64,000 bases of DNA, taken from positions 1 to 64,000 of the forward strand of contig NZ_ASGZ01000064.1 in the NCBI RefSeq assembly GCF_000495475.1, read 5' to 3'. Source of the stretch: Candidatus Halobonum tyrrellensis G22 (GTDB taxonomy: Archaea; Halobacteriota; Halobacteria; Halobacteriales; Haloferacaceae). The position numbers and the translations under genes were made by a program. A model generated the notes under the pieces. It saw only the letters and a program-made list of their open reading frames with translations, ran no database searches and was not told where the DNA came from. This document shows, piece by piece, positions 29,742 to 58,226 of the stretch (the first letter of the stretch is position 1; every line of letters starts with the position of its first letter).

Positions 29742-30614
29742 CTACGCCACGCCGACGTGTTCGCGGAACGACCGCCCGAGGAGCCACTCGCGGTCGGCCG
29801 CCGACAGCGTCTCGACGTGCCGGAGCCAGTGGCGCGCCTCGCCGTACGTCGCCACGTCGCTGACGTTGGGGTAGTCCGACCCCCAGACGACGCGCTCGCG
29901 GCCGAACTGTTCGAGGAACCACCGGACGTGGTCGTGCATGTCGGCGTACGGGAACCCCTCCTCCGACCGGTGGACCACCTCGGAGACCTTGACCGCGGCG
30001 TTGTCGTACGCCGCGACGTCTTCGAACCGCGCGAGCGTCCCCTCGTCGAGCGGCACCCCGGGACCGGCGTGCGCGAAGTGGTCGAACAGGTACGTCAACT
30101 CGGGGTACGCGTCGAGGAGGTCGAGCGCCTGGTCGAGTTGGCGGTGGTCACAGAGTATCTGGACGGCCGCGTCCGTCTCGACGGCGGCGTCCCAGAACTC
30201 CGTCTCCTCGACGGCGTCGCGGAGCCACGTCACGCCCGGGTCGAACGTCTCCCACATCCGGTCGTACGGACAGGCGGCGCCGAGGCGGACGCCGACGACG
30301 CCGTCGACCGCCATGCACTCGCGGAGGCGGTCGGCCGCGCCGTCGGCGAACGGGTCGACCATCACGACTCCGTACAGCCGGTCGCTCGACTCGACCGCCT
30401 CCAGCGTGTAGCTGTTGTCCCGCCAGTCGCAGATGGGGTAGCCGACGACCACCGCCTCGTCGACCCCGTTGCGGTCCATGTCGCCCAGCAGGCGGTCGGC
30501 CGTGTACACCGCGGACACGTCGAACCCGTCGACGGCGGCGGCGATAGCCCCGTTGACCCACGGGCGGTCCGGACTCGGCGGTCCCCACGCGTGTGTGTGT
30601 GTATCGAGCACCAT
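29742..30614 (-). CDS. amidohydrolase-2 family protein, possible sugar-acid lactonase
   Basis: Starting at MVLDTHTHAWG gives 290 residues; the 38 extra upstream residues of the longer frame lie across the divergent promoter. The DTHTHAW start gives the first metal ligands of the PF04909 amidohydrolase barrel. Later ones are LYGVVMVDPF, QILCDHRQLDQALDL, YLFDHFAHAG, NAAVKVSEVVHR and RVVWGSDYPNV (final Asp). Family members hydrolyse lactones such as L-rhamnono- or galactaro-lactones. Beside rhamnose mutarotase, an FAH hydrolase and a rhamnonate-dehydratase-like gene, L-rhamnonolactonase is the best guess. A GCTTTAGT box lies about 30 nt upstream. Confidence 0.82.
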   Translation of the reverse strand: MVLDTHTHAWGPPSPDRPWVNGAIAAAVDGFDVSAVYTADRLLGDMDRNGVDEAVVVGYPICDWRDNSYTLEAVESSDRLYGVVMVDPFADGAADRLRECMAVDGVVGVRLGAACPYDRMWETFDPGVTWLRDAVEETEFWDAAVETDAAVQILCDHRQLDQALDLLDAYPELTYLFDHFAHAGPGVPLDEGTLARFEDVAAYDNAAVKVSEVVHRSEEGFPYADMHDHVRWFLEQFGRERVVWGSDYPNVSDVATYGEARHWLRHVETLSAADREWLLGRSFREHVGVA

Positions 30615-30696
30615 CGCTCCCACCGAGGGGTGAGCGGCTACTAAAGCTTGCCCGGCCGCGAGTAGAACTAAGCCGGCCCGCGCCGAACGGTCGGCG

Positions 30697-31005
30697 ATGG
30701 CTCGGATAGCGTTCCACCTGGAGATCACGGACGGACAGCGCGAGGCGTACCGCGACGAACACGAGAGCGTCCCCGAGGCGCTCGAAGCCGCGTATCTCGA
30801 CTCGGGTGCGGGGCTGGAGACCTACTCGGTGTTCGAGTCCGACGGCCACGTCTTCGGGTTCATGGAGGTCGACGACCCCGAGCGGATCCGCGAGGTGATG
30901 GCGGAGAGCGACGCGCAAGCCGAGTGGGACGAGGTGATGGACCCGATCCTCGAACCGGTCGACGGCGACAACCAGTGGATGGACGAGGTGTACCGGATGG
31001 TCTGA
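30697..31005 (+). CDS. rhaM: L-rhamnose mutarotase
   Basis: This 102-residue ferredoxin-fold protein has the family pattern: RIAFHLEITDGQREAYRDEHESVPEALEA at the front (with the catalytic His in AFHL), LETYSVFESDGHVFGFMEVDD in the middle and WDEVMDPILEP near the end. It interconverts alpha and beta anomers of L-rhamnose, supplying the form taken by the dehydrogenase. It is divergent from the amidohydrolase across 82 bp and convergent with the FAH-family gene. Its presence is the strongest single sign that free L-rhamnose is metabolised here. Confidence 0.88.
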   Translation: MARIAFHLEITDGQREAYRDEHESVPEALEAAYLDSGAGLETYSVFESDGHVFGFMEVDDPERIREVMAESDAQAEWDEVMDPILEPVDGDNQWMDEVYRMV

Positions 31006-31067: not shown

Positions 31068-31916
31068 CTACTCGTCTTCGGCGACGACCGGGTTCGAGAG
31101 CGTGCCGATACCCTCGATCTCGATCTCCACCTCGTCGCCCGGTTCGAGCAGTTCCGGCGGGTCGCTGAACACGCCGACGCCGCCGGGCGTCCCCGTCGAG
31201 ATGACGTCGCCCGGCCGGAGCGTGGTGAACCCGCTGATGTACTCGACGACCTCCTCGACGCCGAAGATGAACTCCTCGGTGTTCGAGTCCTGTCGGGTCT
31301 CGCCGTTGACCCGGCACGCCACGTCGAGGTTCCCGGGGTCGAGATACTCGTCGGGGACGAGCGTCGGACCCATCGGCGCGAACGTGTCGTAGCTCTTCCC
31401 GCGGAAGTACTGCCCGTCGTCGAACTGGGCGTCGCGGCCGCTCACGTCGTTGACGCCCGTGTAGCCCGCGACGTACTCGCGGGCCTCGTCGGCCGAGACG
31501 TCCTTGGCGGTCCGACCGATCACGATCCCCAACTCCACCTCGTAGTCGACCTCCTCCAGTTCGGCGGGGTGGACGATCGGGTCCTCGGGGTTGGTGACCG
31601 ATGTGCTCGCCTTCGAGAACAGCAGCGGGCTGTCGGGGATCTCCTCGTCCTGTTCTTCGGCGTGGTCGTGGTAGTTAAGACCCACGCAGACGATCTTGCT
31701 CGGCCGCGGAACCGGCGCGAGCAGGCGCGCCTCCTCGGTCGGGACCGTGCGTGCGCCCGCCGCCTCGACGGCGTCCTCGACGACGCGGAGGAAGCCGGGG
31801 CTGGACAGTTGTTCGTACGAGACCTCCTCGCGGAGGCCGGCGAGCGAGACGACTTCGTCGTCGCGGCGGACGCCCCACTCGGGTGCGCCGCCAGTGGTGT
31901 ACCGAACCAGTTGCAT
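31068..31916 (-). CDS. fumarylacetoacetate hydrolase family protein, probable 2,4-diketo-3-deoxy-L-rhamnonate hydrolase
   Basis: This 282-residue protein starts MQLVRYTTGG. It has the FAH fold landmarks: KIVCVGLNYHDHAEE (74-88), the metal-binding Glu126 and Glu128 in DYEVELG, GYTGVNDVSGRDAQ, RGKSYDTFAPMGP and GDVISTGTPGGVG. FAH-family enzymes cleave C-C bonds of diketo acids. In haloarchaeal and bacterial diketo-hydrolase routes one such enzyme splits 2,4-diketo-3-deoxy-L-rhamnonate to pyruvate and L-lactate. The surrounding mutarotase, rhamnonate-dehydratase-like and Lut genes fit that role well. The long upstream frame covers the IclR gene in antisense phase and is not real. Confidence 0.85.
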   Translation of the reverse strand: MQLVRYTTGGAPEWGVRRDDEVVSLAGLREEVSYEQLSSPGFLRVVEDAVEAAGARTVPTEEARLLAPVPRPSKIVCVGLNYHDHAEEQDEEIPDSPLLFSKASTSVTNPEDPIVHPAELEEVDYEVELGIVIGRTAKDVSADEAREYVAGYTGVNDVSGRDAQFDDGQYFRGKSYDTFAPMGPTLVPDEYLDPGNLDVACRVNGETRQDSNTEEFIFGVEEVVEYISGFTTLRPGDVISTGTPGGVGVFSDPPELLEPGDEVEIEIEGIGTLSNPVVAEDE

Positions 31917-32011
31917 GGTGTCTCCCCATGCTACTGCCGGGGTGGTAACTGTTGTGTTCCGCCCCACCGCCGCGGCGCCCGGGGTCCGGCCCGCGGCGGG
32001 CGCCGCACCGC

Positions 32012-32764
32012 TCACGAGTAGGTGAGGTTGACCTCGATCACGTTCGAGGTCCGGAGGACGAGTTCGGGAATCTCCTCGGTGAAGCGGTGCTCGCGCATCC
32101 GGCTCTCGGGTCCCGAGACGCTCACGGCGGCGATGGCGCGCCCGTCGTCGTCGGTGATCGGCGCGGCGACACACCGCATCCCCTTCACCCGCTCGGCGTC
32201 GTCGTAGGCGTACCCGCGCTCGCGGACCGCGTCGAGTTCCTCGAACAGGTCGTCGCGGTCGGTGATCGTGTTCTCGGTCACCGGCGGGAGACCGTGGCGG
32301 TCGACGATCGCATCCACCTCCTCGCGCGGGCGGTGGGCCATGATCGACTTGCCGAGCGCCGCGGTCTGGAGCGGCACCCGCATGCCCGCGTGGGTGTCGA
32401 GTTGGACGGCGTCGTCGCCGCGCGCCTTGTAGAGGAACACGCCAAGACCGTGTTCCTCGATCATCAGGTTGGCGTGCTCGCCGGTCTGGTCGGCCAAGTC
32501 GTCGACCTCCGGCCGCGCGATCCGGAACGGCTTGGTGCGCGCGCGCGCCTGTTCGCCGAGTTGGAGGAAGCGCGTCCCCACGTGGTACTCCCCACCCTCC
32601 TTGACGAGGTACTCCTCGGCTTCGAGCGTGCGGAGGTAGTCGTGGACGGTGCTGGTCGGTCGGTCCAACCGTTCGGCCACCTCCGAGACGCCCGCCCCGT
32701 CGAGTTCCCGAAGCGTCTCGACCACCTCGAACGAGACTTTCGCCGCGTTGATCGGGCCTGGCAT
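32012..32764 (-). CDS. IclR-family transcriptional regulator 2 (rhamnose-type)
   Basis: This 250-residue protein starts at MPGPINAAKVSFEVVETL; the M four codons upstream is less likely because the shorter start gives the usual N-terminus. The wHTH is at about 10-70 (GVSEVAERLDRPTSTVHDYLRTLEAEEYLVKEG) and the effector domain at about 85-245 (TAALGKSIMAHRP, GMRCVAAPITDDDG, AVSVSGPESRM). It sits in the rhamnose module. TCCGA-N5-TCGGA lies at 32799-32813 just upstream of its start and three more times in the 35104-35820 divergent promoter, pointing to autoregulation and control of the module. Confidence 0.93.
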   Translation of the reverse strand: MPGPINAAKVSFEVVETLRELDGAGVSEVAERLDRPTSTVHDYLRTLEAEEYLVKEGGEYHVGTRFLQLGEQARARTKPFRIARPEVDDLADQTGEHANLMIEEHGLGVFLYKARGDDAVQLDTHAGMRVPLQTAALGKSIMAHRPREEVDAIVDRHGLPPVTENTITDRDDLFEELDAVRERGYAYDDAERVKGMRCVAAPITDDDGRAIAAVSVSGPESRMREHRFTEEIPELVLRTSNVIEVNLTYS

Positions 32765-32798: not shown

Positions 32799-32813
32799 TC
32801 CGATATAGTCGGA
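32799..32813. promoter_or_regulatory. candidate IclR-2 operator TCCGA-N5-TCGGA (autoregulatory)
   Basis: TCCGA-TATAG-TCGGA is a perfect 5-bp inverted repeat about 35 nt before the IclR 2 start, overlapping an ACTATATC promoter-like stretch. The same arms and spacing recur three times at 35227-35606. Confidence 0.65.
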
Positions 32814-32858
32814 TTCCCGCCCGAACACCGTCGATCCGCCCCACGACCGGCGGTCCGC

Positions 32859-33896
32859 TCACGCGAACTGCGGCATCACCTCGTCGGCGAACAGTTCCAT
32901 CCCCTCGAAACCGGGGAAGTCGACGAACCAGCCTTGGAACTTGGTGACGCCCGCGTCGACCCGACGTTCGATGGCCTCGGCGCACTCCTCGGGCGTCCCC
33001 ATCACGAAGTACTCGCGGGCGTCCGCTTCCGTCCGAATGGGCGCTTGGTCCTGGTACTCCTCCTCGAACTGGATCGGGAGCATCAGGTCCAAGAGACGGT
33101 CGAGTTCCGCCTCGTCGCGCGTACAGATCACGTGGCCGTCCCACGAGTACTCGATGTCGTCGGGGTCGCGCCCCACGGTCTCGCAGTGCTCCTCGATCAC
33201 GCCGATCTTCCGCCTCAGGGTCTCGACGTCGCCGTTGAACACGTCGGTGTTCCACACGTCGGCGTGTTTGGCGACGAGTTTGAGCGTCACCTCCTCGCCC
33301 TGCCCGCCCACCAGGATCGGCGGGTGGGGATCCTGTACGGGCGCGGGCGCGCACGCGGCGTCCTCGATCCGGTAGCGGTCGCCGTCGAAACTCGCGCCGT
33401 CGGGACCCGCCTCCCACATCCGCTTCATCAGGCGGATCGACTCGTCGAGTCGCATCAACCGCTCGAACCCGTCGCGGTACTCCCAGCCGTACGCCTCGTA
33501 CTCGGGTTCGTGCCAGCCCGCGCCCAAGCCGAGTTCGAGTCGGCCCTCGGAGACCACGTCGAGCGTCGCGGCCATCTTCGCGACCAGCGCGGGGTTGCGG
33601 TAGTCGTTACACAGCACGAGCGACCCGAGGTTGATGTCGTCGGTGAACCCCGCCATCGCCGACAGCAGGGTCCAACACTCGTACTCCGCGCGGTCGCGAC
33701 CGAGCATCAGGTGGTCGGGCGCCCACGCCGCGTCGAAGCCGAGTTCCTCCGCCTTCTCGATGCCCGCCCGCGTCGTCTCCCAGTCGAGCGCCTCGTACTC
33801 GGGGGTGTCGCGGTGGACCGGTTCGTCGTCGCCCTCGTCGGGTGCGCCCGCGAAGACGGGCACGTTGTACTCGAAGCTGATCTCTGATTCGCTCAT
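32859..33896 (-). CDS. LLM-class F420-dependent oxidoreductase (copy 3)
   Basis: This 345-residue luciferase-like protein starts MSESEISFEYNVPVFAG. Landmarks are GFDAAWAPDHLML, NLGSLVLCNDYRNPALVAKMAATLDVVSEGRLELGLGAGWHEPEYEAYGW (flavin or F420 block) and PPILVGGQGEEVTLKLVAKHADVWN. It follows the rhamnonate-dehydratase-like gene with one intervening base and so belongs to the same transcript. That makes it the best placed of the three LLM enzymes for a role in rhamnose or sugar-acid metabolism, for example an F420-linked oxidation. The reaction is unknown. Confidence 0.87.
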   Translation of the reverse strand: MSESEISFEYNVPVFAGAPDEGDDEPVHRDTPEYEALDWETTRAGIEKAEELGFDAAWAPDHLMLGRDRAEYECWTLLSAMAGFTDDINLGSLVLCNDYRNPALVAKMAATLDVVSEGRLELGLGAGWHEPEYEAYGWEYRDGFERLMRLDESIRLMKRMWEAGPDGASFDGDRYRIEDAACAPAPVQDPHPPILVGGQGEEVTLKLVAKHADVWNTDVFNGDVETLRRKIGVIEEHCETVGRDPDDIEYSWDGHVICTRDEAELDRLLDLMLPIQFEEEYQDQAPIRTEADAREYFVMGTPEECAEAIERRVDAGVTKFQGWFVDFPGFEGMELFADEVMPQFA

Positions 33897-33897
33897 C

Positions 33898-35103
33898 TTA
33901 CTCGTGTGCGAAGTGGTCGAGCGCCTCGCGGTTGAGTTCCGAACTCAGCCCCACGCCGTCGGGGAGTTGGATGACCCCGTCTTCGGCGTTCGGCGGGTTC
34001 GCGTAGATGGCGTCGGCGTACGTCGACTCCTTCTCCTCGCGTTGCTCGGTGTACCACTCGGGGATCGGGAAGTACTCCGCCATCGGCGCGTTGGTCGACC
34101 CCGCGATGAAGTGGAGGTGCGGGTTCGTCCCCGAGTGGGGGACCACCGGCACGTCGTGCGTGCTCGCGAGCGCGTCGATCTTCAGGAGTTCGGTCAGGCC
34201 GCCACAGCGGTGGACGTCGGGTTGGAGGATGTCCACGGCGTCGCGTTCGAGCAGGTCCTCGTGGCCCCACCGGGTGAACTCGTGTTCCCCGCCCGAGATG
34301 GGCATCGGCGCCGCCTCCCGCACCGCGGCGTAGCCGTCGATGTCGTCGGGGATGACCGGCTCCTCGACCCACTCCATGTCGTACGGCTCCAGCCTGTCGA
34401 GCATCTTCTTGGCGTACCGGACGGTCCACCCCATGTACGCGTCGCCCGCGATCCCGATCTCGTCGCCCACCGCGTCGCGGACGGTCTTTACGATCTCCTC
34501 GTTCTCCTTCATCCCCCGCCGGCCCGCCTCGGGACCGTGGCGGAACCGGAGCTTCATCGTCTCGAACCCGGCGTCGGCGTACTCCTGCGCCTCCCGCTCT
34601 AACGTCTCCGTGTCGACGGGGTGGAGGTTGCTCGCGTACGCGGGGATCTCGTCTTTCGTGGGACCGCCGAGGAGTTCGTACACCGGCTTGCCGGCTTCCT
34701 TGCCCGCGATGTCCCACAGCGCGCAGTCGACCGCACTGATCGCTTCGATGGCCGCGCCCTTCCGGCCGAACGGGATGGTCGCGCGGTACATGATGTCCCA
34801 GAGGCGTTCGCGCTCCTGGGGGTCCTCGCCGACGACGAGTTTCGAGAGCGTCTCGTCGACGATGGTGGCGATGGCGCCGGTCGCCCAGTTGCCGTGGCCC
34901 ACGCCCGTAACTCCGGCGTCGGTCTCGACTTCGACGACCACGTCACCCACCGGGCCCATCCACTTCCGGCGGGCCTGCTCGTTGTCGCCGTCGGCGTTGT
35001 TGTACTCGTCGTACTGGCTCATCACGGTGACGAGCGGGAACTCGACGAACTCGCCCCACGACTCGGTGCTCACTTCGGTTGCGGATATGTCGGTGATCTC
35101 CAT
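33898..35103 (-). CDS. enolase-superfamily dehydratase, probable L-rhamnonate dehydratase
   Basis: This 401-residue protein starts MEITDISATEV. The strand-2 motif is MKLRFRHGP (183-191), the form seen in L-rhamnonate dehydratases rather than a plain KxK. Metal ligands are Asp221 (AGDAYMGW), Glu247 (WVEEP) and Glu273 (SGGEHEF), and His323 is in VVPHSGTNPH. Length matches the rhamnonate dehydratases (about 400). It would turn L-rhamnonate into 2-keto-3-deoxy-L-rhamnonate. It is first in an operon with the LLM gene and has a GAGTTAAG box at 35151-35158. Three candidate IclR-2 operators lie in the divergent region. Confidence 0.87.
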   Translation of the reverse strand: MEITDISATEVSTESWGEFVEFPLVTVMSQYDEYNNADGDNEQARRKWMGPVGDVVVEVETDAGVTGVGHGNWATGAIATIVDETLSKLVVGEDPQERERLWDIMYRATIPFGRKGAAIEAISAVDCALWDIAGKEAGKPVYELLGGPTKDEIPAYASNLHPVDTETLEREAQEYADAGFETMKLRFRHGPEAGRRGMKENEEIVKTVRDAVGDEIGIAGDAYMGWTVRYAKKMLDRLEPYDMEWVEEPVIPDDIDGYAAVREAAPMPISGGEHEFTRWGHEDLLERDAVDILQPDVHRCGGLTELLKIDALASTHDVPVVPHSGTNPHLHFIAGSTNAPMAEYFPIPEWYTEQREEKESTYADAIYANPPNAEDGVIQLPDGVGLSSELNREALDHFAHE

Positions 35104-35150
35104 CGTGTCTCGGGTCGAACCCCGTTGGTCACGAAAGCGGCGAACAGCGA

Positions 35151-35158
35151 CTTAACTC
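35151..35158 (-). promoter_or_regulatory. TATA-like box of the rhamnonate-dehydratase-like operon
   Basis: Minus-strand GAGTTAAG, 47 nt before the start, implying a short leader. The 12-mer around it is identical to the one at the IclR 1 promoter. Confidence 0.5.
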
Positions 35159-35226
35159 TTTGTAGATGATGGACTCCCGAGATACTCGACGACCGCACGG
35201 CGGCCGCGTCGGGGCGGGTCGAATCT

Positions 35227-35241
35227 TCCGACATGCTCGGA
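35227..35241. promoter_or_regulatory. candidate IclR-2 operator TCCGA-N5-TCGGA
   Basis: TCCGA-CATGC-TCGGA, perfect arms, about 70 nt beyond the TATA-like box of the rhamnonate-dehydratase operon. Confidence 0.6.
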
Positions 35242-35395
35242 GCGATCCGTTCGCCGAAGCGAAATTCGAGCGCCCGTTCCGGCCCCACACCCGCCCTCGC
35301 GGCCGGGAACCGGCGAAGAACCGCACGTCAGCCTCGTCCGCCCCGCAGTCGCGGCTGTCGACGGCCCGGAGCGGCCTCGGCCCGCTCTCACACCG

Positions 35396-35410
35396 TCCGA
35401 CAGAGTCGGA
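35396..35410. promoter_or_regulatory. candidate IclR-2 operator TCCGA-N5-TCGGA
   Basis: TCCGA-CAGAG-TCGGA, perfect arms, in the middle of the divergent region. Confidence 0.6.
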
Positions 35411-35591
35411 AACCCGACTCGAACGCCTCGTCCACCCCGATACCCGTCGATCTGAAGTCCAGACTCCCGGTCGCGGGGATTACGGTGGTACGCGTGTAAT
35501 CCGCAGCATTTGCCGGTTCGACCCGGCGTGAGCGTGGATGTATGGCTCTTTGGGCCGATCCGGCCGACGGCGGACCCCCTGTCCAGATCGG

Positions 35592-35606
35592 TCCGACATC
35601 GTCGGA
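35592..35606. promoter_or_regulatory. candidate IclR-2 operator TCCGA-N5-TCGGA
   Basis: TCCGA-CATCG-TCGGA, perfect arms, about 150 nt upstream of the TATA-like box of the MDR dehydrogenase gene. Confidence 0.6.
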
Positions 35607-35820
35607 TAATCGTCCGGCAGTGCCGTCCGGTCGTTCTCCGCGTCGCTCCGCGGCCGGACTGCGACTCGAGATCGGATCTGCGCACGCCCGACGGACGACG
35701 GATCGACCGAGTTAGCCCCGGAAATGCCGGAGTTCGGCAGGTCTGGCTTACTCCCAAGATTATTAACCACCGGTTCCGTACGGAGGGTGAGACGGCTTGC
35801 GGAGAGCCTCCCAGAAACCC

Positions 35821-36855
35821 ATGAAAGCAATCGTTCAGACCGGACCCCGCTCCGTCGAGACGCAGGAACGGGCGGTGCCGACCCCGGCGACGGATGAGGT
35901 GCTCGTGAAAGTCCACACGGCCGGGCTATGCGGAAGCGACGCCCACGCGTACAAGTACGACGGCGGCTACGAGTGGATCCAGATACCCCGCGTCGTCGGC
36001 CACGAGTACTCGGGCGAGGTGGTCGACGTCGGCGCGGACGTCGAGGGGTTCACCGAGGGCGACAAAGTCATCGAGGAGCCCATCCACCACTGCGGCCGCT
36101 GCTTCCAGTGTAAGAACGGCCAGCCCAACGTGTGTCAGAACTTCTCGATCACGGGGATGCACCGCGACGGCGCGTACGCGGAGTTCGTCGCGGTCGGCGC
36201 CGACCACCTCCACGCCGTCCCCGACGGGGTGCCGCTCCACCAGGCGGCGATCACCGAACCGACCAGCATCGCCACCCGCGCGGTGCTCACCCGGTCGGGA
36301 ACGAACCCCGGCGACAACGTCCTCGTCGAGGGGCCCGGTCCGATCGGCGTGCTCGTCGCCGCCGTCGCGGACTCGCTGGGGGCGAACGTCGTGGTGTCGG
36401 GACTCGACCGCGACGCGGAGTACCGCCTCCCGCTGGTCGAGGACCTCGGTATCGAGACGGTCAACGCGGCGGTCGAGGGGGCCATCGCCGACCGCGCGGA
36501 GTCGATGACCGACGGTATCGGCTTCGACGTGGTGTTCGACTCGACGGGCCACCACTCGGGCATCTCGACGGGGATCGACTACGTGCGGAAGGGCGGGGAG
36601 ATCGTCGTCGTCGGCATCCCCAACCAGGCGAGCGAGGCGGACCTCGCGCCGGTCGTCCGCGGCGAGGTGGACGTCAACGGCTCGTACGGGTCGACGTGGA
36701 CCAACTTCGAGCAGGCGCTCCGGCTGATGGAGCGCGGGGAGATAGCCGTCGACCGGATCGTCGACACCTCCTACAGCGTCGACGACCCCACCGCGGCGTT
36801 CGACGCGTTCCTCGACTCGCGGACCTGCAAGCCCGTCTTCCAGTTCGACGGGTGA
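35821..36855 (+). CDS. zinc-dependent MDR dehydrogenase (possible 2-keto-3-deoxy-L-rhamnonate dehydrogenase)
   Basis: This 344-residue medium-chain dehydrogenase has catalytic zinc ligands Cys37 (AGLCGSD) and His61-Glu62 (GHEYSG). Structural zinc cysteines are 91, 94, 97 and 105. The cofactor motif is VEGPGPIGVLVAAVADSLG. DSTGHHSG and GGEIVVVGIPNQ complete the pattern. It is divergent from the rhamnonate-dehydratase-like gene and shares its regulatory region with three candidate IclR-2 sites. After dehydration, oxidation of 2-keto-3-deoxy-L-rhamnonate is the next step of the diketo-hydrolase route, and this gene is the best local candidate. A sugar or polyol dehydrogenase is the alternative. 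Confidence 0.85.
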   Translation: MKAIVQTGPRSVETQERAVPTPATDEVLVKVHTAGLCGSDAHAYKYDGGYEWIQIPRVVGHEYSGEVVDVGADVEGFTEGDKVIEEPIHHCGRCFQCKNGQPNVCQNFSITGMHRDGAYAEFVAVGADHLHAVPDGVPLHQAAITEPTSIATRAVLTRSGTNPGDNVLVEGPGPIGVLVAAVADSLGANVVVSGLDRDAEYRLPLVEDLGIETVNAAVEGAIADRAESMTDGIGFDVVFDSTGHHSGISTGIDYVRKGGEIVVVGIPNQASEADLAPVVRGEVDVNGSYGSTWTNFEQALRLMERGEIAVDRIVDTSYSVDDPTAAFDAFLDSRTCKPVFQFDG

Positions 36856-40716: not shown

Positions 40717-41907
40717 TCAGTCGAGTTCGTCGGCGCGCGGAAGCGCGTCGAGGTCCGCGGGCACGTCGACGAGGTAGACGTCGCTCCCGTCGCCGCCGCG
40801 GGCACTGTCGAAGACGACGGTCGACCCGTCGGGACTCAGCCGCGAGTGGGGGTGGGCGTCGTCGTCACCCGCCCACCCGTGGCCGGCGAGTTTCCGGGGA
40901 GTGTCGTACGCGTTCTCGCTCTCGTCCCACGCCCACAGCAGGAGGTACGGTACGCCGCGGTCGACGTACGTGCCGTCGCCGACGACCAACTCGCGGGTGT
41001 TGCTGTGGAAGTGGGTGTAGATGTCCGGCGCGGGCGCCTCCCGGCGGTCGGTGTCGTCGTACCGCACCTGCCCGAAGAACGCGTCCGGGTCGTCGCGGGT
41101 GCCGCGCCAGCCGTGGTAGCCGACGGTCTCGCCGTCGGCCAGCCAGTACTCGTGGCCGACCGCCTCGTCCGGCCCGGTCGGGCGGACGCGCCACGTCTCG
41201 TCGGTCGAGAGATCGAGCGCCCACACCCGGTCCACCTGCTCCCACGGTCCCTCCTCGCAGTAGGTGACGAGGTCGGGTCGGGTCGGCGAGGCGTTGACGT
41301 GGTTGAGCCACCGGTCGTCGTCGACGTGGACGGTCGGGTCGCCGCCGTCGGTCGGCACCGACACCACCTGCGAGTGGGGGCCGGCCGCCATCCGGCGTTC
41401 GATCCAGTCCTCGCGGTCGCCGTCGCCGCGGTCGACCCCGAGTTCCGCGTCGGTCGCCGACAGCGCGGTCACGACCCGGTCGCCGTCGGCGGTCGCCGCG
41501 AGGTGGCTCCCGCCGTAGCCGTCGGGGAGGTCGTACAGCGCGGTCACCGTCAGCGTCTCCAGGTCGACCGAGCAGAGGCGGTCGTCGTGCCAGACGTACG
41601 CGACCGGCTCGGAGGCGCACCGCGTCACGCCCGAGACGCGGCCGGGGAGGTCGGTCACCTGCGTGAGCGTCCCCGTCCGGAGGTCGGCCGAGTGGAGGTC
41701 GAGCGTCCCGTCGCCGCGGTCCGACAGGAACAGCAGCCGTCGGCCGCCGTCGTACCAGCCCGGTTCGGTGAAGTAGAGGTGGCTGTCCTCCCCGGGACCG
41801 GCGGTGAGACGCGTCACGCGCGCTCCCGTCTCGGGGTCGTCGTACCGCTCGGACTCGGACGGCCGCTCGCGCCCGGCGTCGGGTCCCTGCTGGGTCTCGG
41901 GGGGCAT
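40717..41907 (-). CDS. oligogalacturonate lyase family protein, PL22-like (copy 1)
   Basis: This 396-residue beta-propeller protein matches the oligogalacturonate-lyase family: HLYFTEPGWYDGGRRLLFLSDR (a WD40-like blade and metal region), NHVNASPTRPDLVTYCEEGPW, VGHEYWLADGETVGYHGW and HPHSRLSPDGSTVVFDS. The histidines in these blocks are the metal and catalytic positions. Such enzymes split unsaturated di- and trigalacturonides in the cytoplasm, after pectate lyase. No signal peptide. A paralogue lies at 55557. Convergent with the second beta-helix gene. Confidence 0.9.
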   Translation of the reverse strand: MPPETQQGPDAGRERPSESERYDDPETGARVTRLTAGPGEDSHLYFTEPGWYDGGRRLLFLSDRGDGTLDLHSADLRTGTLTQVTDLPGRVSGVTRCASEPVAYVWHDDRLCSVDLETLTVTALYDLPDGYGGSHLAATADGDRVVTALSATDAELGVDRGDGDREDWIERRMAAGPHSQVVSVPTDGGDPTVHVDDDRWLNHVNASPTRPDLVTYCEEGPWEQVDRVWALDLSTDETWRVRPTGPDEAVGHEYWLADGETVGYHGWRGTRDDPDAFFGQVRYDDTDRREAPAPDIYTHFHSNTRELVVGDGTYVDRGVPYLLLWAWDESENAYDTPRKLAGHGWAGDDDAHPHSRLSPDGSTVVFDSARGGDGSDVYLVDVPADLDALPRADELD

Positions 41908-49789: not shown

Positions 49790-51463
49790 TCACTCCCGTT
49801 CGCCCGCGTCGCCCGACGGGTTCGACCCCCGCGGCGGGAGGTTCCCCCGCGTCGTGAACCCGTGTTCCCCCTCGATACCGACCGCCGCCTCCGCGAGGTC
49901 GTTGTTCGCGAACAGCCGGTCGTCGTCGGTGTCGGAGACGGCGAGGAACGCCCCCGTCCCGGGGCGGGCGCGGCCGTTCCGGACCGTCGCGCCCGTCGTC
50001 GCCCGGAGCGCGACCGCGGGGTCGGGGTCCCCTCCCGTGTCGTCGCCGGACGCACGAGCGTGCGCGCCGCGGCCCTCGAACCCGTCGACCACGACACCGT
50101 CGACGCCGACACAGCGGAGCCCCTCCGCGTAGTACGGTTCGGGCGCGTCGCCCCACTCGACGGTCAGGTCGCGGACCGCGAGGTCAGAGACGTTCTCGCA
50201 GTGGAGCGCGGGGATGTCGCGCTCCCACACCGGCGGGACGACGCTCGTCGGCTGGAGGTCGAAGTTGCCGCCGACCGCGTCGGCGTGGGGACTCGACCCC
50301 ACCCGGAGGCGGACGCCGTCGAGGCGCACGTCGCGCACGTCGGCCGTCTCGTGGGCGTAGACGACGCCGCCGTTGTCGGCGTCGGCGACGACGTCCGAAA
50401 AGTGCACGCCGCTGACCGACCCCAGGTCGGTGCCCTCGTCGCGCGGGACGGACGTGACGTAGACCGGTTCGGCCTTCCCCCACCACGGACCCGGGCGGAG
50501 GCGCGTCTCCACCGTGATGTCCGAAAAGCGGACGTTCTCGACGGACCCCTCGTCGCGGTGTTGGACGCCGAGTCCCCGGTTGGACGAGCGGACGACGCAG
50601 TTCGACACCAAGAGATCGGAGACGTCGCCGGCCGTCTCCGACCCCACCTTGACCGCGCAGGCGCTCGACGAGAGGACGCAGTTGGTGACGACGACCCCTC
50701 GGGTGGGCCGGTCGACGCCCGCGCGGGCGCCGACGGTCACCGAGTCGTCACACGAGTAGATACGGCAGTCGGCTATCCGGACGTCCTCCGAGTTCATCAC
50801 CGAGACGCCGTCGCAGTTGGGCACGCGCATGTGGTTGTCGACGGTGACGCCCCGAACCGCGGCGCCGTCGCAGTCGTCGAGCGCGACGGTCCAGGCGGGC
50901 ATGTCGCGGAGGGTCACGTCCGCGACGAGGACGTTCTCGCAGCCGTCGAACAGCAGCATCGGTCCCGGGCGGAACGCACCCTTGGCGACGGGCCACTCGT
51001 CCGTCCCGGCCGAGCGGTCGAGGTAGTCGTCGCCCTGCCGCGCGCGGTGTGGGCCGTTCGAGACCAGCGGGTGGGCGTCGCTCTCGGCGGAGTGGCCCCG
51101 GATGGGGTCGTCCATGTCGAGGAAGTCGGCGCTCCGGCCGTCGATACACCCGCGGCCGACCACCGCCACGTCGGCGCAGTCGTCCGCGAGGAGGAACGGC
51201 GGCTCCCCCTCCGGACCCGGTCGGTCGTCGGTGTACTCGGCGGGGTCGCGCGCGGCGTACACCGTCGCGCCCGCCGCCAGCCGGAGCGTCACGTGGTCGC
51301 GGAGGCGGACGGTGCCGGTCTCGTACTCGCCGGCCGGGACGGTCACGGTGCCGCCGCCCGCGTCGGCGACGGCGTCGACCGCGGCCCGGAACGCGTCGGT
51401 GTCGGTCGGAGCCGCGGGGTCGGTGTAGTCGGTGACGGCGACGCTCTCCGTCGGCGGTGACAT
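49790..51463 (-). CDS. GH28-like polygalacturonase family protein, cytoplasmic
   Basis: Starting at MSPPTESVAVTDYTDP gives 557 residues; the longer frame to 51622 crosses the divergent promoter. The N-terminus is PTDTDAFRAAVDAVADAGGGTVTVPAGEYETG, the beta-helix start of GH28. NCDGVSVMNSEDVRIADCRI and CDDSVTVG match the catalytic NTD and DD blocks, keeping three aspartates. The usual GHG and RIK motifs are not visible (SSACAVKVGSE and NRGLGVQHRDE stand there), so cleavage specificity or mechanism may differ. No signal peptide. It probably acts on imported oligogalacturonides or rhamnogalacturonides. Confidence 0.87.
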   Translation of the reverse strand: MSPPTESVAVTDYTDPAAPTDTDAFRAAVDAVADAGGGTVTVPAGEYETGTVRLRDHVTLRLAAGATVYAARDPAEYTDDRPGPEGEPPFLLADDCADVAVVGRGCIDGRSADFLDMDDPIRGHSAESDAHPLVSNGPHRARQGDDYLDRSAGTDEWPVAKGAFRPGPMLLFDGCENVLVADVTLRDMPAWTVALDDCDGAAVRGVTVDNHMRVPNCDGVSVMNSEDVRIADCRIYSCDDSVTVGARAGVDRPTRGVVVTNCVLSSSACAVKVGSETAGDVSDLLVSNCVVRSSNRGLGVQHRDEGSVENVRFSDITVETRLRPGPWWGKAEPVYVTSVPRDEGTDLGSVSGVHFSDVVADADNGGVVYAHETADVRDVRLDGVRLRVGSSPHADAVGGNFDLQPTSVVPPVWERDIPALHCENVSDLAVRDLTVEWGDAPEPYYAEGLRCVGVDGVVVDGFEGRGAHARASGDDTGGDPDPAVALRATTGATVRNGRARPGTGAFLAVSDTDDDRLFANNDLAEAAVGIEGEHGFTTRGNLPPRGSNPSGDAGERE

Positions 51464-51636
51464 ACGCGGAGCGTCGACCGCGCCGCCGTTAGCTGTTCCG
51501 GTCGGGGTCGTCCGCCACGGCGGGCGACGAGCCGGTACGGCGAAGGGTCGGCGGGCGACCGCCGCCGCCGCAGCGAGCGGTCCGCGTCGGAGATGAGCAC
51601 GCTTTAGCCCCGGGACACCCACGCACGGATATCCAC

Positions 51637-54444
51637 ATGAGCGACCAGCTACGGCCCGCCCGTCTACGGACCGAGTTCGCCGAGAACCCCCCGGGTATCG
51701 ACGCCCGGACGCCGGACCTGCGGTGGCGGGTCGACGCCGACCGGCGCGGCGCGCGACAGACCGGTTTCCGCCTCCTCGTCGCGTCGACGCCCGAGACGCT
51801 CGCGGCCGACGAGGGCGACGTGTGGGCCGTCGAACGGCGGGGGTCCCGGCCCGCCGTCGAGTACGACGGACCCGCGCTGGAGTCCGAGGCGACGTACCAC
51901 TGGAAGGTCCGGGTCCGCGACGAGGCGGGCGAGTGGGGACCGTGGAGCGACCCCGCCCGGTGGGGAACGGGACCGCTCGACGCCGACGACTGGGAGGCGG
52001 CGTGGATACGCCGCTCCGGGGAGAACGCGTTCGAGCGCGGCCAGTTCAGCTACTTCCGCCGGTCGTTCGACCTGCCGGGCGCCGACGCGAACGTCGGTAC
52101 GGACGGCGACGCCGAACGCGAGGTGGTGCGCGCGCGGGCGTTCGTCTCCGCGAGCCACCAGTACACGCTGTCGGTCAACGGCGAGACGGTCGACCGCGGG
52201 CAGGCGTTCGACTACCCCGACTCCCAGTACTACCGGACCGTCGAGGTGGGCGACGCGCTCCGAGCGGGCGAGAACGTCGTCGGCGCACTCCACACGTGGA
52301 ACGGCGAGGGGCAGGGCCGTCCCGCCGCGGAGCCGGGGTTCCTCCTCCGGCTGGTCGTGGAGTTCGCCGACGGGAGCCGACGGGTCGTCACCACCGACGA
52401 CTCGTGGCGGGTCCGCGAGGGACCGTGGCTCGACGCGCCGCTCCGGAACGACGAGATAGCCGAACCCGTCGAGCGCATCGACGGCCGGCGCGTCCCGCAC
52501 GGGTGGGACGAACCCGGGTTCGACGCCGACGCCGACGACGGCGAGTGGGCCGACGCCGCGGCGGTGGGGACTCACCCGACCGAGCCGTGGGAGCGACTGG
52601 TCGCGCAGGTCCGCGACGTCGACCGGCGGGCGGTCGACCCCGAGTCGGTCACCCGGCTGGATTCGCCCGACGCGGACGGCGACGTGTACGTGGTCGACTT
52701 CGGCCGGGTGTACGCGGGCGTCCCGGTCGTCCGGTTCGCGTCGGGAACCGACGGCCACCGCGTCCGGATGCGCGCGGGCTACCGGCTGGACGACGACGGC
52801 GACGTCGACCCGACCGAGGGCACCCAGTGGACCGACATGCGCTACGCGTACGTCCAGCCCGACGGCGCGAGCGAGTTCCGCCCGTTCAACTACCTCGGGT
52901 TCCGCTACCTCCGGGTCGAGGCGCCGGGGGAGGAACTGAGCGAGGAGCAGGTGGGGCTAGTCGCGTCGCACAACGCGGTCCCCGACGAGCGGGCGGCGAC
53001 GTTCGAGTCGAGCGACCCCGGCGTCGACGACGTGTTCGAACTCGCGCGCCACTCCGCGCTGTACGGCTCCCAAGAGCAGTTCGTCGACACGCCGACCCGC
53101 GAGAAGGGGCAGTTCCTCGCCGACTCGCTCAACGTCTCGCGGGTCACGACGCGCGCGTTCGGCGAGCGCCGGCTGAGCCGCGCGTCGGTTCGCGAGTTCG
53201 TCGAGTCGCACTACCGCTACTGGGCGAGCGAGGGACGGCTGAACGCGGTCTACCCGAACGGCGACGGCAAGCGGGACATCCCCGACTTCACCGTCTCCTT
53301 CCCCGAGTGGGTGTGGCAGTACTACCGGACCGCCGACGACCCCGCGACGCTCGTCGCCGCCTACCCCGTGGTGCGGGCGATCGCCGACTACGTCGTCAGA
53401 CACGTCGACCCCGAGACGGGGCTGGTCACGCGGCTGTCGGGCGGGGAGGGCGGCCCCTACGAGGAGGGTATCGTCGACTGGCCGGCCGAGATGCGCTACG
53501 GCTACGACCGCGAGTGGCCCGCGCGAACGACGGTCAACTTCCTGAGCGCGAACGCGCTCCGACGCGCGGCCGACGTGGCGGCCGAACTCGGCCAGCCCGA
53601 GGCGGAGCGGGCGTACTACCGCGACGCCGCCGACGGGATCGACGCCGCCATCGACGACCGACTGCGCGACGGCGAGCGGTACGTCGACGGCGCCGACGCC
53701 GCGGGAGCGAGCGACCACGCCTCCCAGCACGCCAACGCGCTGGCGCTCGCGCTCGGGCACGCTCCCGACGCCGCGGCCGACGCCGTCGCCGACCGGGTGG
53801 TCGAAGACGGGATGGCGATGGGCCCGATGATGGTGCCGTGGCTGCTCCGCGCGCTCGACGCCGCCGACCGGCCGGCGGCGATGGTCGACCTGCTGACCGA
53901 CCCGACCCACGACGGCTGGGCGGACATCCTCGCGGAGGGCGGGACGTTCACGTGGGAGACGTGGGCGGCGCGCGACCCCGACCTGCCGGACGACGAGCGG
54001 CACAACCGCAGCGAGTCGCACGCGATGGGGGCGACGGTGCTCGTGTCGATACAGCGCACGCTCCTCGGGGTGAGCGTCGCGGAGTCGGGCGGCGCGCGCG
54101 TGCGGGTCGCCCCGCCCGCCGAGGGGCTCGAAACCGCGTCCGGCACCGTCCCGACCGAGCGCGGGCCGGTGTCGGTCGCGTGGGAGCGCGCCGACGGGGC
54201 GTTCGAACTCGACGTCTCGGTGCCGGTGAACGCGGCGGCGACCGTCTCGCTGCCCCCCGCCGACGGCGCCGCGGTGACGGTGAACGGCGAGACCGTAGAC
54301 CCCGGCGCCGACTCGGCCGCCGGTAGCTCCGACGACGACGGTGCCCGGTCGCTCCCCGAGGGCGTCGACGCGGTCGGGTCGAGCGACGGACGCGCCGAGG
54401 TCGAGGTCGGATCGGGCGAGTACGCGTTCGTCGCCCGCGAGTGA
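51637..54444 (+). CDS. GH78 alpha-L-rhamnosidase
   Basis: This 935-residue protein is a full GH78 enzyme. N-terminal beta domains begin RTEFAENPPGIDARTPDLRWRV; the jelly-roll part has ARAFVSASHQYTLSVNGETVDRGQAF. The (alpha/alpha)6 domain carries DTPTREKGQFLADS with the likely general acid Glu489 and TFTWETW with the likely general base Glu774. A C-terminal beta domain closes the protein. It releases terminal L-rhamnose from rhamnogalacturonan oligomers or glycosides, feeding the rhamnose route. No signal peptide, hence cytoplasmic. Divergent from the GH28-like gene with a CTTTAG box at about 51602-51607. Confidence 0.93.
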   Translation: MSDQLRPARLRTEFAENPPGIDARTPDLRWRVDADRRGARQTGFRLLVASTPETLAADEGDVWAVERRGSRPAVEYDGPALESEATYHWKVRVRDEAGEWGPWSDPARWGTGPLDADDWEAAWIRRSGENAFERGQFSYFRRSFDLPGADANVGTDGDAEREVVRARAFVSASHQYTLSVNGETVDRGQAFDYPDSQYYRTVEVGDALRAGENVVGALHTWNGEGQGRPAAEPGFLLRLVVEFADGSRRVVTTDDSWRVREGPWLDAPLRNDEIAEPVERIDGRRVPHGWDEPGFDADADDGEWADAAAVGTHPTEPWERLVAQVRDVDRRAVDPESVTRLDSPDADGDVYVVDFGRVYAGVPVVRFASGTDGHRVRMRAGYRLDDDGDVDPTEGTQWTDMRYAYVQPDGASEFRPFNYLGFRYLRVEAPGEELSEEQVGLVASHNAVPDERAATFESSDPGVDDVFELARHSALYGSQEQFVDTPTREKGQFLADSLNVSRVTTRAFGERRLSRASVREFVESHYRYWASEGRLNAVYPNGDGKRDIPDFTVSFPEWVWQYYRTADDPATLVAAYPVVRAIADYVVRHVDPETGLVTRLSGGEGGPYEEGIVDWPAEMRYGYDREWPARTTVNFLSANALRRAADVAAELGQPEAERAYYRDAADGIDAAIDDRLRDGERYVDGADAAGASDHASQHANALALALGHAPDAAADAVADRVVEDGMAMGPMMVPWLLRALDAADRPAAMVDLLTDPTHDGWADILAEGGTFTWETWAARDPDLPDDERHNRSESHAMGATVLVSIQRTLLGVSVAESGGARVRVAPPAEGLETASGTVPTERGPVSVAWERADGAFELDVSVPVNAAATVSLPPADGAAVTVNGETVDPGADSAAGSSDDDGARSLPEGVDAVGSSDGRAEVEVGSGEYAFVARE

Positions 54445-55556: not shown

Positions 55557-56720
55557 TTACGCGTCGGGACCCCCGGGGTCGAACGGCGGGAGGTCGTCGA
55601 AGGCTGGCACGTCGACGAGGTAGACGTCGTTGTCGCCCGCGGGGTCGGCGTCGAAGACGACGGTCGAGCCGTCGGGCGAGAACCGCGAGTGGGGGTGGGG
55701 ACTCTCGGGGTCCCACGCGTGGGTGGCGAGTTTTCGCGGGTCGCGGTAGCCGCCGTCGCCGTCGGCGTCGTACAACAGCAGGTGCTGGGTGCCGGTGTCG
55801 CCGTCGCAGACGAACCGCGAGCGGTCGTTGGCATGACAGTGTGTCTCGCGGACCGGGATGGGCGTCTCGCGTCTGTCGGTGTCGTCGTAGCGGACGGTTC
55901 CGAAGAACCGTTCGCCCGACTCGCGGCTCCCCCGCCAGCCGTGGTAGCCGACGTGTTCGCCGTCGCGGAGCCAGAACTCGTGGCCGACCGCCTCGTCGTC
56001 GTCCGTCTCGCGGAGGCGGTACGACTCGCCCGTCTCCAGGTTCAGGACGTGCATCCGGTTGTCGACGTGGTCCCACGGCCCCTCGTGACAGAACGTCAGG
56101 AGGTCGGGCCGGGTCGGCGAGGCGTTGACGTGGCTGATCCACCGCCCCTCCTCGTGGACGAGTTCGGGGTCGCCCCCCTCGACGGGGACGACGAACACCG
56201 CACAGTGGGGGCGGCGCTCGCGGGTCGCCTCGAACCCGTCGACGTCCGTCCGCTCCGTCGCCTTGATCAGGAGGCGCTCGTCGTCCGCGAGGACGTCGTC
56301 GACCGCGAGCGCGTAGCCGTCGCGGTAGTCGGGCGGTAGCCCCGTCACGTCGCGTACGGACAGGCGGTCGAGGTGGACCGCGACCACGCGGTCGCCGTGG
56401 GTGACGTACACCTCGTTCCGGGCGGGGTTGACCCGCGTCGACCCGTACACTTGCTCGGGGAGGTCTGTCACCTGCGTCAGGGTGTCCGTCTCCAAGTCCA
56501 GCGAGAACAGGTTGCGCCGGCCCTCGCGGCGCGACCGCAGGAGGAGGCGGCGGCCGTCGTCGTACCAGCCGTCGGTGGTGAAGTAGAGGTGGTGGTCGGC
56601 CGCCCCCGGCTGGTCGGTCAGCCGGCGGACGCGCGCGCCGGTGTTCGGGTCGACGTACGAACTCGTCTCGGCCGGCCACTTGACGCCGGCTCTCGGTCCC
56701 TGGCGTAGCTCCGCGGACAT
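55557..56720 (-). CDS. oligogalacturonate lyase family protein, PL22-like (copy 2)
   Basis: This 387-residue paralogue of the protein at 40717 starts MSAELRQGPRAGVKWP; longer frames cross the TATA box. Shared blocks are HHLYFTTDGWYDDGRRLLLRS, SHVNASPTRPDLLTFCHEGPW, VGHEFWLRDGEHVGYHGWRGS and HPHSRFSPDGSTVVFDADPAG. The N-terminal KWPAETSSYVDPNTGARVRRLT is closer to classical oligogalacturonate lyases than copy 1. It should cut unsaturated digalacturonate to 4-deoxy-keto uronates in the cytoplasm. It probably shares a transcript with the SGNH esterase downstream. Confidence 0.91.
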   Translation of the reverse strand: MSAELRQGPRAGVKWPAETSSYVDPNTGARVRRLTDQPGAADHHLYFTTDGWYDDGRRLLLRSRREGRRNLFSLDLETDTLTQVTDLPEQVYGSTRVNPARNEVYVTHGDRVVAVHLDRLSVRDVTGLPPDYRDGYALAVDDVLADDERLLIKATERTDVDGFEATRERRPHCAVFVVPVEGGDPELVHEEGRWISHVNASPTRPDLLTFCHEGPWDHVDNRMHVLNLETGESYRLRETDDDEAVGHEFWLRDGEHVGYHGWRGSRESGERFFGTVRYDDTDRRETPIPVRETHCHANDRSRFVCDGDTGTQHLLLYDADGDGGYRDPRKLATHAWDPESPHPHSRFSPDGSTVVFDADPAGDNDVYLVDVPAFDDLPPFDPGGPDA

Positions 56721-56743
56721 ACCTCCCGCGTCGGCGGGCGGTC

Positions 56744-56750
56744 GTATAAG
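56744..56750 (-). promoter_or_regulatory. TATA box of the second PL22-like gene
   Basis: Minus-strand CTTATAC, 23 nt before the ATG at 56720. Confidence 0.65.
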
Positions 56751-56937
56751 CGTTCGCGCGCCGGCACGGCGGCACGGGGGAGTAGGCGGGACACGGCGGC
56801 GCGTCGACCCGGGTCGGCGCACGCGGGCACGCGAGGCGCGCGGCACGCGTCGTCGACGGTCCGCGGCGGCGCTCGACCGCTCTCGGCGGGCGCCGATGGG
56901 AAACGCTAACTGTCGTCCAGCCGGCGGTCGAGGGGAG

Positions 56938-58129: not shown

Positions 58130-58226
58130 TTACCTGTGCGGTATGTATCTATTTCGTCCGGTATCATCGGCGGAAAGGCTACATACGCGGAGCGACGACG
58201 GGTCGCGGTCGGCATCGGGAGAATGC

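Follow-up and report, generated by a model that had tools for sequence, protein, structure and literature searches.

Four perfect TCCGA-N5-TCGGA palindromes in a 64,000-nucleotide stretch of DNA from the haloarchaeon Candidatus Halobonum tyrrellensis G22 (the window) are proposed to be operators of the IclR-family protein IclR-2, a probable orthologue of the rhamnose regulator RhcR. IclR-2 would repress its own gene through one of these sites and activate the divergent L-rhamnose genes rhcD and rhcE from upstream (Table 1), a reading to which the sequence, position and conservation of the sites give a probability of roughly 80%.

Table 1. Candidate operators and neighbouring genes of the rhamnose region (window coordinates).
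Feature	Position	Strand	Placement or remark	Basis
Operator 1 (candidate)	32799..32813		IclR-2 promoter; minus-strand reading TCCGACTATATCGGA	Exact match; same core and place before orthologues
AACGCTTTTCT	directly after operator 1	-	BRE/TATA-like; ATG ~35 bp beyond	
Operator 2 (candidate)	35227..35241		123 bp upstream of rhcD start codon	Exact match, sequence context
Operator 3 (candidate)	35396..35410		Middle of gap between divergent rhcD and rhcE	Exact match
Operator 4 (candidate)	35592..35606		214 bp upstream of rhcE start codon	Exact match, sequence context
Possible weak fifth site CCCGGAAATGCCGGA	35717..35731		One core mismatch; just upstream of rhcE TATA-like element	Weight-matrix scan, low score 8.5
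rhcC, L-rhamnono-1,4-lactonase	29742..30617	-		71% identity to PGAP-named rhcC
L-rhamnose mutarotase	30697..31005	+		Pfam rhaM
rhcF, 2,4-diketo-3-deoxy-L-rhamnonate hydrolase	31068..31919	-	Start from alignment	80% identity to PGAP-named rhcF
IclR-2, probable RhcR orthologue	32012..32764	-		Pfam IclR HTH and IclR_C; orthologues within annotated rhc loci
LLM-class oxidoreductase gene	32859..33896	-	Between rhcD and IclR-2	Pfam and NCBIfam; same neighbours in most rhc loci
rhcD, L-rhamnonate dehydratase	33898..35103	-		77% identity to PGAP-named rhcD; enolase-superfamily domains
rhcE, 2-keto-3-deoxy-L-rhamnonate dehydrogenase (MDR gene of the preliminary description)	35821..36855	+		80% identity to PGAP-named rhcE

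An exact scan finds the palindrome four times in the window and nowhere else in it, in agreement with a preliminary description of this DNA, which had also noticed no copies inside genes; all four sites indeed lie between called genes. Dinucleotide shuffles of the window yield a mean of 0.37 sites and reached four in none of 100 trials. When the letters of the arms were permuted (n = 60), the mean was 0.3 and the best rival order gave three sites, four being reached only with the real arm, and the permuted arms gave no site at all in the 717-bp divergent gap between rhcD and rhcE (35104-35820). The real arms at other spacings are likewise absent from the window, except for two occurrences at N13. 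Measured against the rate in the remaining genome, the local cluster of four has a Poisson probability of about 1e-12.

Comparison across species reduces the motif to a 15-bp core, TCCG-N7-CGGA, which is located about 50-65 bp before the start codons of IclR-2 relatives in Halosimplex, Halogeometricum, Haloarcula, Natrialba, Natronococcus, Halomicrobium, Haloferax and other genera. Of the 28 homologues that are at least 60% identical, 27 have the core within about 80-90 bp upstream (the 28th, at locus L109, has a copy overlapping its start region), as compared with 8/34 at 50-60% and 0/79 below 50%. The spacing is strict: among these 141 homologues N7 occurs in 35, and every other spacing from 0 to 15 gives none or one. 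An orthologue set fetched later carries the core in 11 of 12 cases, at -52 to -55, the exception being L188. In the relatives, a BRE/TATA-like sequence of the form CGGAAAnnnTTTW comes directly after the core. In the window and 15 related loci taken together, intergenic DNA contains 44 sites at N7 versus 0-11 at other spacings, whereas coding DNA shows no excess (12 at N7 versus 6-25). Base 5 of the operator varies among orthologues, being mostly A or G, indicating that TCCGA is one variant of the arm; the arm given in the preliminary description is present in all four sites but is over-specified with respect to the cross-species core. In paralogues that lack the motif (the IclR genes of L066, L025, L116 and L131), the corresponding upstream position is occupied by other palindromes of equal length, for example TTTGG-N5-CCAAA and TTTAG-N5-CTAAA, which suggests a single operator frame that accommodates different half-sites.

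Proteins encoded behind the motif share a recognition helix, P-T/K-S-T-V-H-D-H-L-R/Q-T-L, in which Asp42 is found in 36/36 motif-bearing proteins versus 8/105 other homologues. Position 42 aligns with Lys39 of TM0065 (1mkm), and through the 1mkm alignment and Table 5 of PMC8222616, positions 42 and 37 correspond to Arg52 and Arg47 of TtgV. TtgV Arg52 contacts DNA directly, Arg47 is critical for binding, and Asp-C is listed among the preferred contacts (PMC8222616). In a homologue tree built without the HTH columns, the motif maps to a single supported clade (42 rows), with a few losses, so that the match between helix and motif is largely one inherited event and not a replicated correlation. 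Independent contrasts of helix residue against motif yielded only two supported pairs and are underpowered.

Judged by their similarity to named proteins, the genes of the window are an rhc-type L-rhamnose cluster, which makes IclR-2 a probable orthologue of Haloferax RhcR. A LUD/LldH-type lactate dehydrogenase beside the rhc genes is 78% identical to the LUD protein of an rhc locus, and together with the rhc genes and the mutarotase it fits a route from L-rhamnose to pyruvate and L-lactate. Haloferax volcanii catabolises rhamnose to pyruvate and lactate (PMC8305020). IclR-2 scores above the cut-off for both Pfam models of its family (the IclR HTH and the IclR_C effector domain), and its gene sits between the LLM-class gene and rhcF, as in many relatives. 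The proteins compared with it were relatives that adjoin rhcD, rhcE, rhcF and the LLM gene, to which it is 73-79% identical. RhcR is described as an IclR-type activator of Haloferax volcanii L-rhamnose catabolism (Reinhardt et al. 2019 as cited in PMC11519228). The region around the rhc genes also appears equipped for the use of pectin and rhamnogalacturonan, with two oligogalacturonate lyases, a GH28 protein and a GH78 rhamnosidase (window 40717-41907, 49790-51622, 51637-54444 and 55557-56846). The LLM-class gene is retained next to rhcD in almost every rhc locus, although the rhamnose pathway is not known to include a step for such an oxidoreductase.

An IclR-2 dimer would read one TCCG half-site per subunit across the 15-bp palindrome. 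Operator 1 reaches up to and into the BRE beside the IclR-2 TATA box; binding there should consequently block TFB/TBP and repress the regulator gene. With about 26 bp between the TATA-like run and the ATG, the IclR-2 transcript appears to be leaderless. Autoregulation had been predicted in the preliminary description, and this prediction is strongly supported by the position-conserved sites before orthologues and by the motif-linked recognition helix. In the divergent gap, TATA-like elements are found near 35151-35156 (rhcD) and 35760-35766 (rhcE), and the three gap sites lie upstream of both without overlapping either, an arrangement more in keeping with activation than with blocking of the promoters. 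From these sites, a dimer or tetramer with bound inducer would activate the L-rhamnose genes, possibly bridging sites. The distances of operators 2 and 4 from the start codons seem far for a classic upstream activating site, which counts against this half of the mechanism.

The sites at rhcD and rhcE are only patchily conserved. Natronococcus (L103) has two sites before rhcE and Haloarcula marina (L109) two near-sites, the pairs lying at 120 and about 242 bp. Haloferax, several Haloarcula and Halosimplex lack exact sites at rhcD/rhcE, as do most of the other loci examined, rendering the activation half less certain. The earlier proposal that IclR-2 controls the rhamnonate-dehydratase and MDR genes therefore finds support in the three perfect sites here and in the paired sites of two other genera, but is not borne out by exact sites in most other species. 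Autorepression by overlap with the BRE, combined with upstream activation of rhcD and rhcE, is the likeliest mechanism, its activating part being inferred; sequence alone does not tell activation from repression.

It could be argued that the palindromes do not serve a protein at all, and that they are hairpins, terminators, dispersed repeat elements or chance occurrences. The genome-wide counts appear to favour this: the 3.68-Mb genome has 14 copies of the exact 15-mer, with about 21 predicted from the shuffle rate of the window, and about seven of the 14 fall in coding DNA, as delimited by a rough gene caller using acidity and GC3. The comparison of coding with intergenic copies, which the preliminary description had named as a check, thus returned a background level, indicating that the 15-mer is not a genome-wide signal and that the four copies of the window are a local cluster. 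In addition, Haloferax gibbonsii has four TCCG-N7-CGGA sites in a gap of about 500 bp between convergent genes, one of them a mutarotase gene (L052:4374-4856), where it is hard to see a promoter role and hairpins could form. The fixed position before start codons in many genera, the strict spacing and the intergenic excess are hard to reconcile with such an origin, no gene ends within the divergent region here, and a search of that region for an RNA element gave no credible Rfam match; a non-protein explanation is consequently very improbable. As a genome-wide regulon marker, the exact 15-mer is ruled out by the same counts, and the looser core, with 163 copies, was rejected as too frequent for meaning. 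Limiting the core to AT-leaning centres leaves seven genomic copies, three of them on contig C55 (C55:31630-32309), where they occupy 680 bp just downstream of gcvT/gcvH-like glycine-cleavage genes with no rhamnose or sugar link seen. An intergenic copy of the 15-mer at C64:166849 is flanked by a gene for an ABC transporter ATPase and by another IclR gene that encodes a different type of helix. Within the window, TCCGGTATCATCGGC at 58157-58171 is an intergenic core with one mismatch and a good centre (weight-matrix score 13.9).

Many bacterial IclR proteins are repressors, and the overlap of the IclR-2 promoter site with its BRE would suit a plain repressor that acts on its own gene and on rhcD and rhcE through all four sites, to be released by a rhamnose intermediate. 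This is rather unlikely, given that the three sites of the divergent region do not overlap TATA-like elements and that PMC11519228 describes RhcR, XacR, GacR and MscR of haloarchaea as activators. A somewhat stronger, though still doubtful, alternative is that a whole IclR subfamily reads TCCG-N7-CGGA. A second IclR paralogue of this genome, encoded on contig C13 beside pentose-type genes, likewise has the core ahead of its gene (TCCGGCTCTACCGGA), and two further core sites lie in the DNA that separates an FAH-type gene from a gene for a dehydratase of the mandelate-racemase type. The core is shared, too, by paralogues of 50-60% identity from Halosimplex and Haladaptatus. The motif can therefore not be assigned to IclR-2 alone, and the "IclR-2 regulon" of the preliminary description holds locally but not beyond, considering this paralogue and the genome-wide background of the 15-mer. 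The C13 paralogue might also bind the four rhc sites, resulting in cross-talk between rhamnose and pentose catabolism, or might even be the main binder of the divergent region. Against this, the rhc sites adjoin the IclR-2 gene, whose orthologues retain the site, and A5/T11 is found in 4/4 rhc sites and 0/3 C13 sites of this genome; with four versus three sites, the suggestion that this pair separates the two sets is only a hint. A tentative extension, about as doubtful as the shared operator itself, is that IclR paralogues of haloarchaea retain a single 15-bp operator frame over their own BRE and diversify through helix residues 37, 42 and 45 together with half-site bases (TCCG versus TTTG- or GTTC-like), the rhamnose and pentose regulators here avoiding cross-talk only via bases 5 and 11 (A/T versus others). 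If so, the IclR family would offer a readable protein-DNA specificity code in archaea.

For RhcR-type regulators of haloarchaea, TCCG-N7-CGGA just before the BRE provides a precise and portable predicted operator. On this basis, autorepression and activation can be tested with Haloferax reporters, and rhamnose-inducible promoters might become easier to build. Like IclR-2, RhcR of Haloferax belongs to the IclR family, and relatives of IclR-2 with 73-74% identity occur in Haloferax species in the same rhc neighbourhood with the same core before the gene. The RhcR-type sites in Haloferax are of the form TCCGG-N6-GCGGA, whereas the arms here are TCCGA/TCGGA, and the divergent arrangement of rhcD and rhcE with three sites between them also differs from Haloferax. 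XacR, the IclR-type regulator of xylose and arabinose catabolism in Haloferax volcanii, reportedly activates catabolic genes and represses its own gene via a promoter palindrome. A similar layout is proposed here, with a palindrome at the regulator's own promoter that overlaps promoter elements and, in orthologues, precedes the start codon by about 50 bp; XacR differs from IclR-2 in its sugar and its target genes. Group 1 operators of bacterial IclR proteins follow GKTYCRYW3-4RYGRAMC with a tandem spacing of 18-22 bp (Suvorova and Gelfand, PMC8222616). The present sites resemble these in being odd-length palindromes with an RY-W3-RY-like centre and in their autoregulatory position near the gene. 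They depart from them in the outer half-site, which is TCCG in place of GKTYC/KTYC (two positions differ, the consensus T and C being C and G), and, at distances of 169 and 196 bp, successive sites in the divergent region lie well beyond the Group 1 tandem spacing. Boxes of the Group 2 consensus, TGRAACA-N1-2-TGTTYCA (PMC8222616), were not found in the sites. Very probably, then, the palindromes are genuine and conserved operators of an RhcR-type regulator, with a half-site unlike both published bacterial consensus types. They would extend the IclR operator types catalogued so far in bacteria to an archaeal clade in which a distinct half-site goes together with a recognition helix to match.
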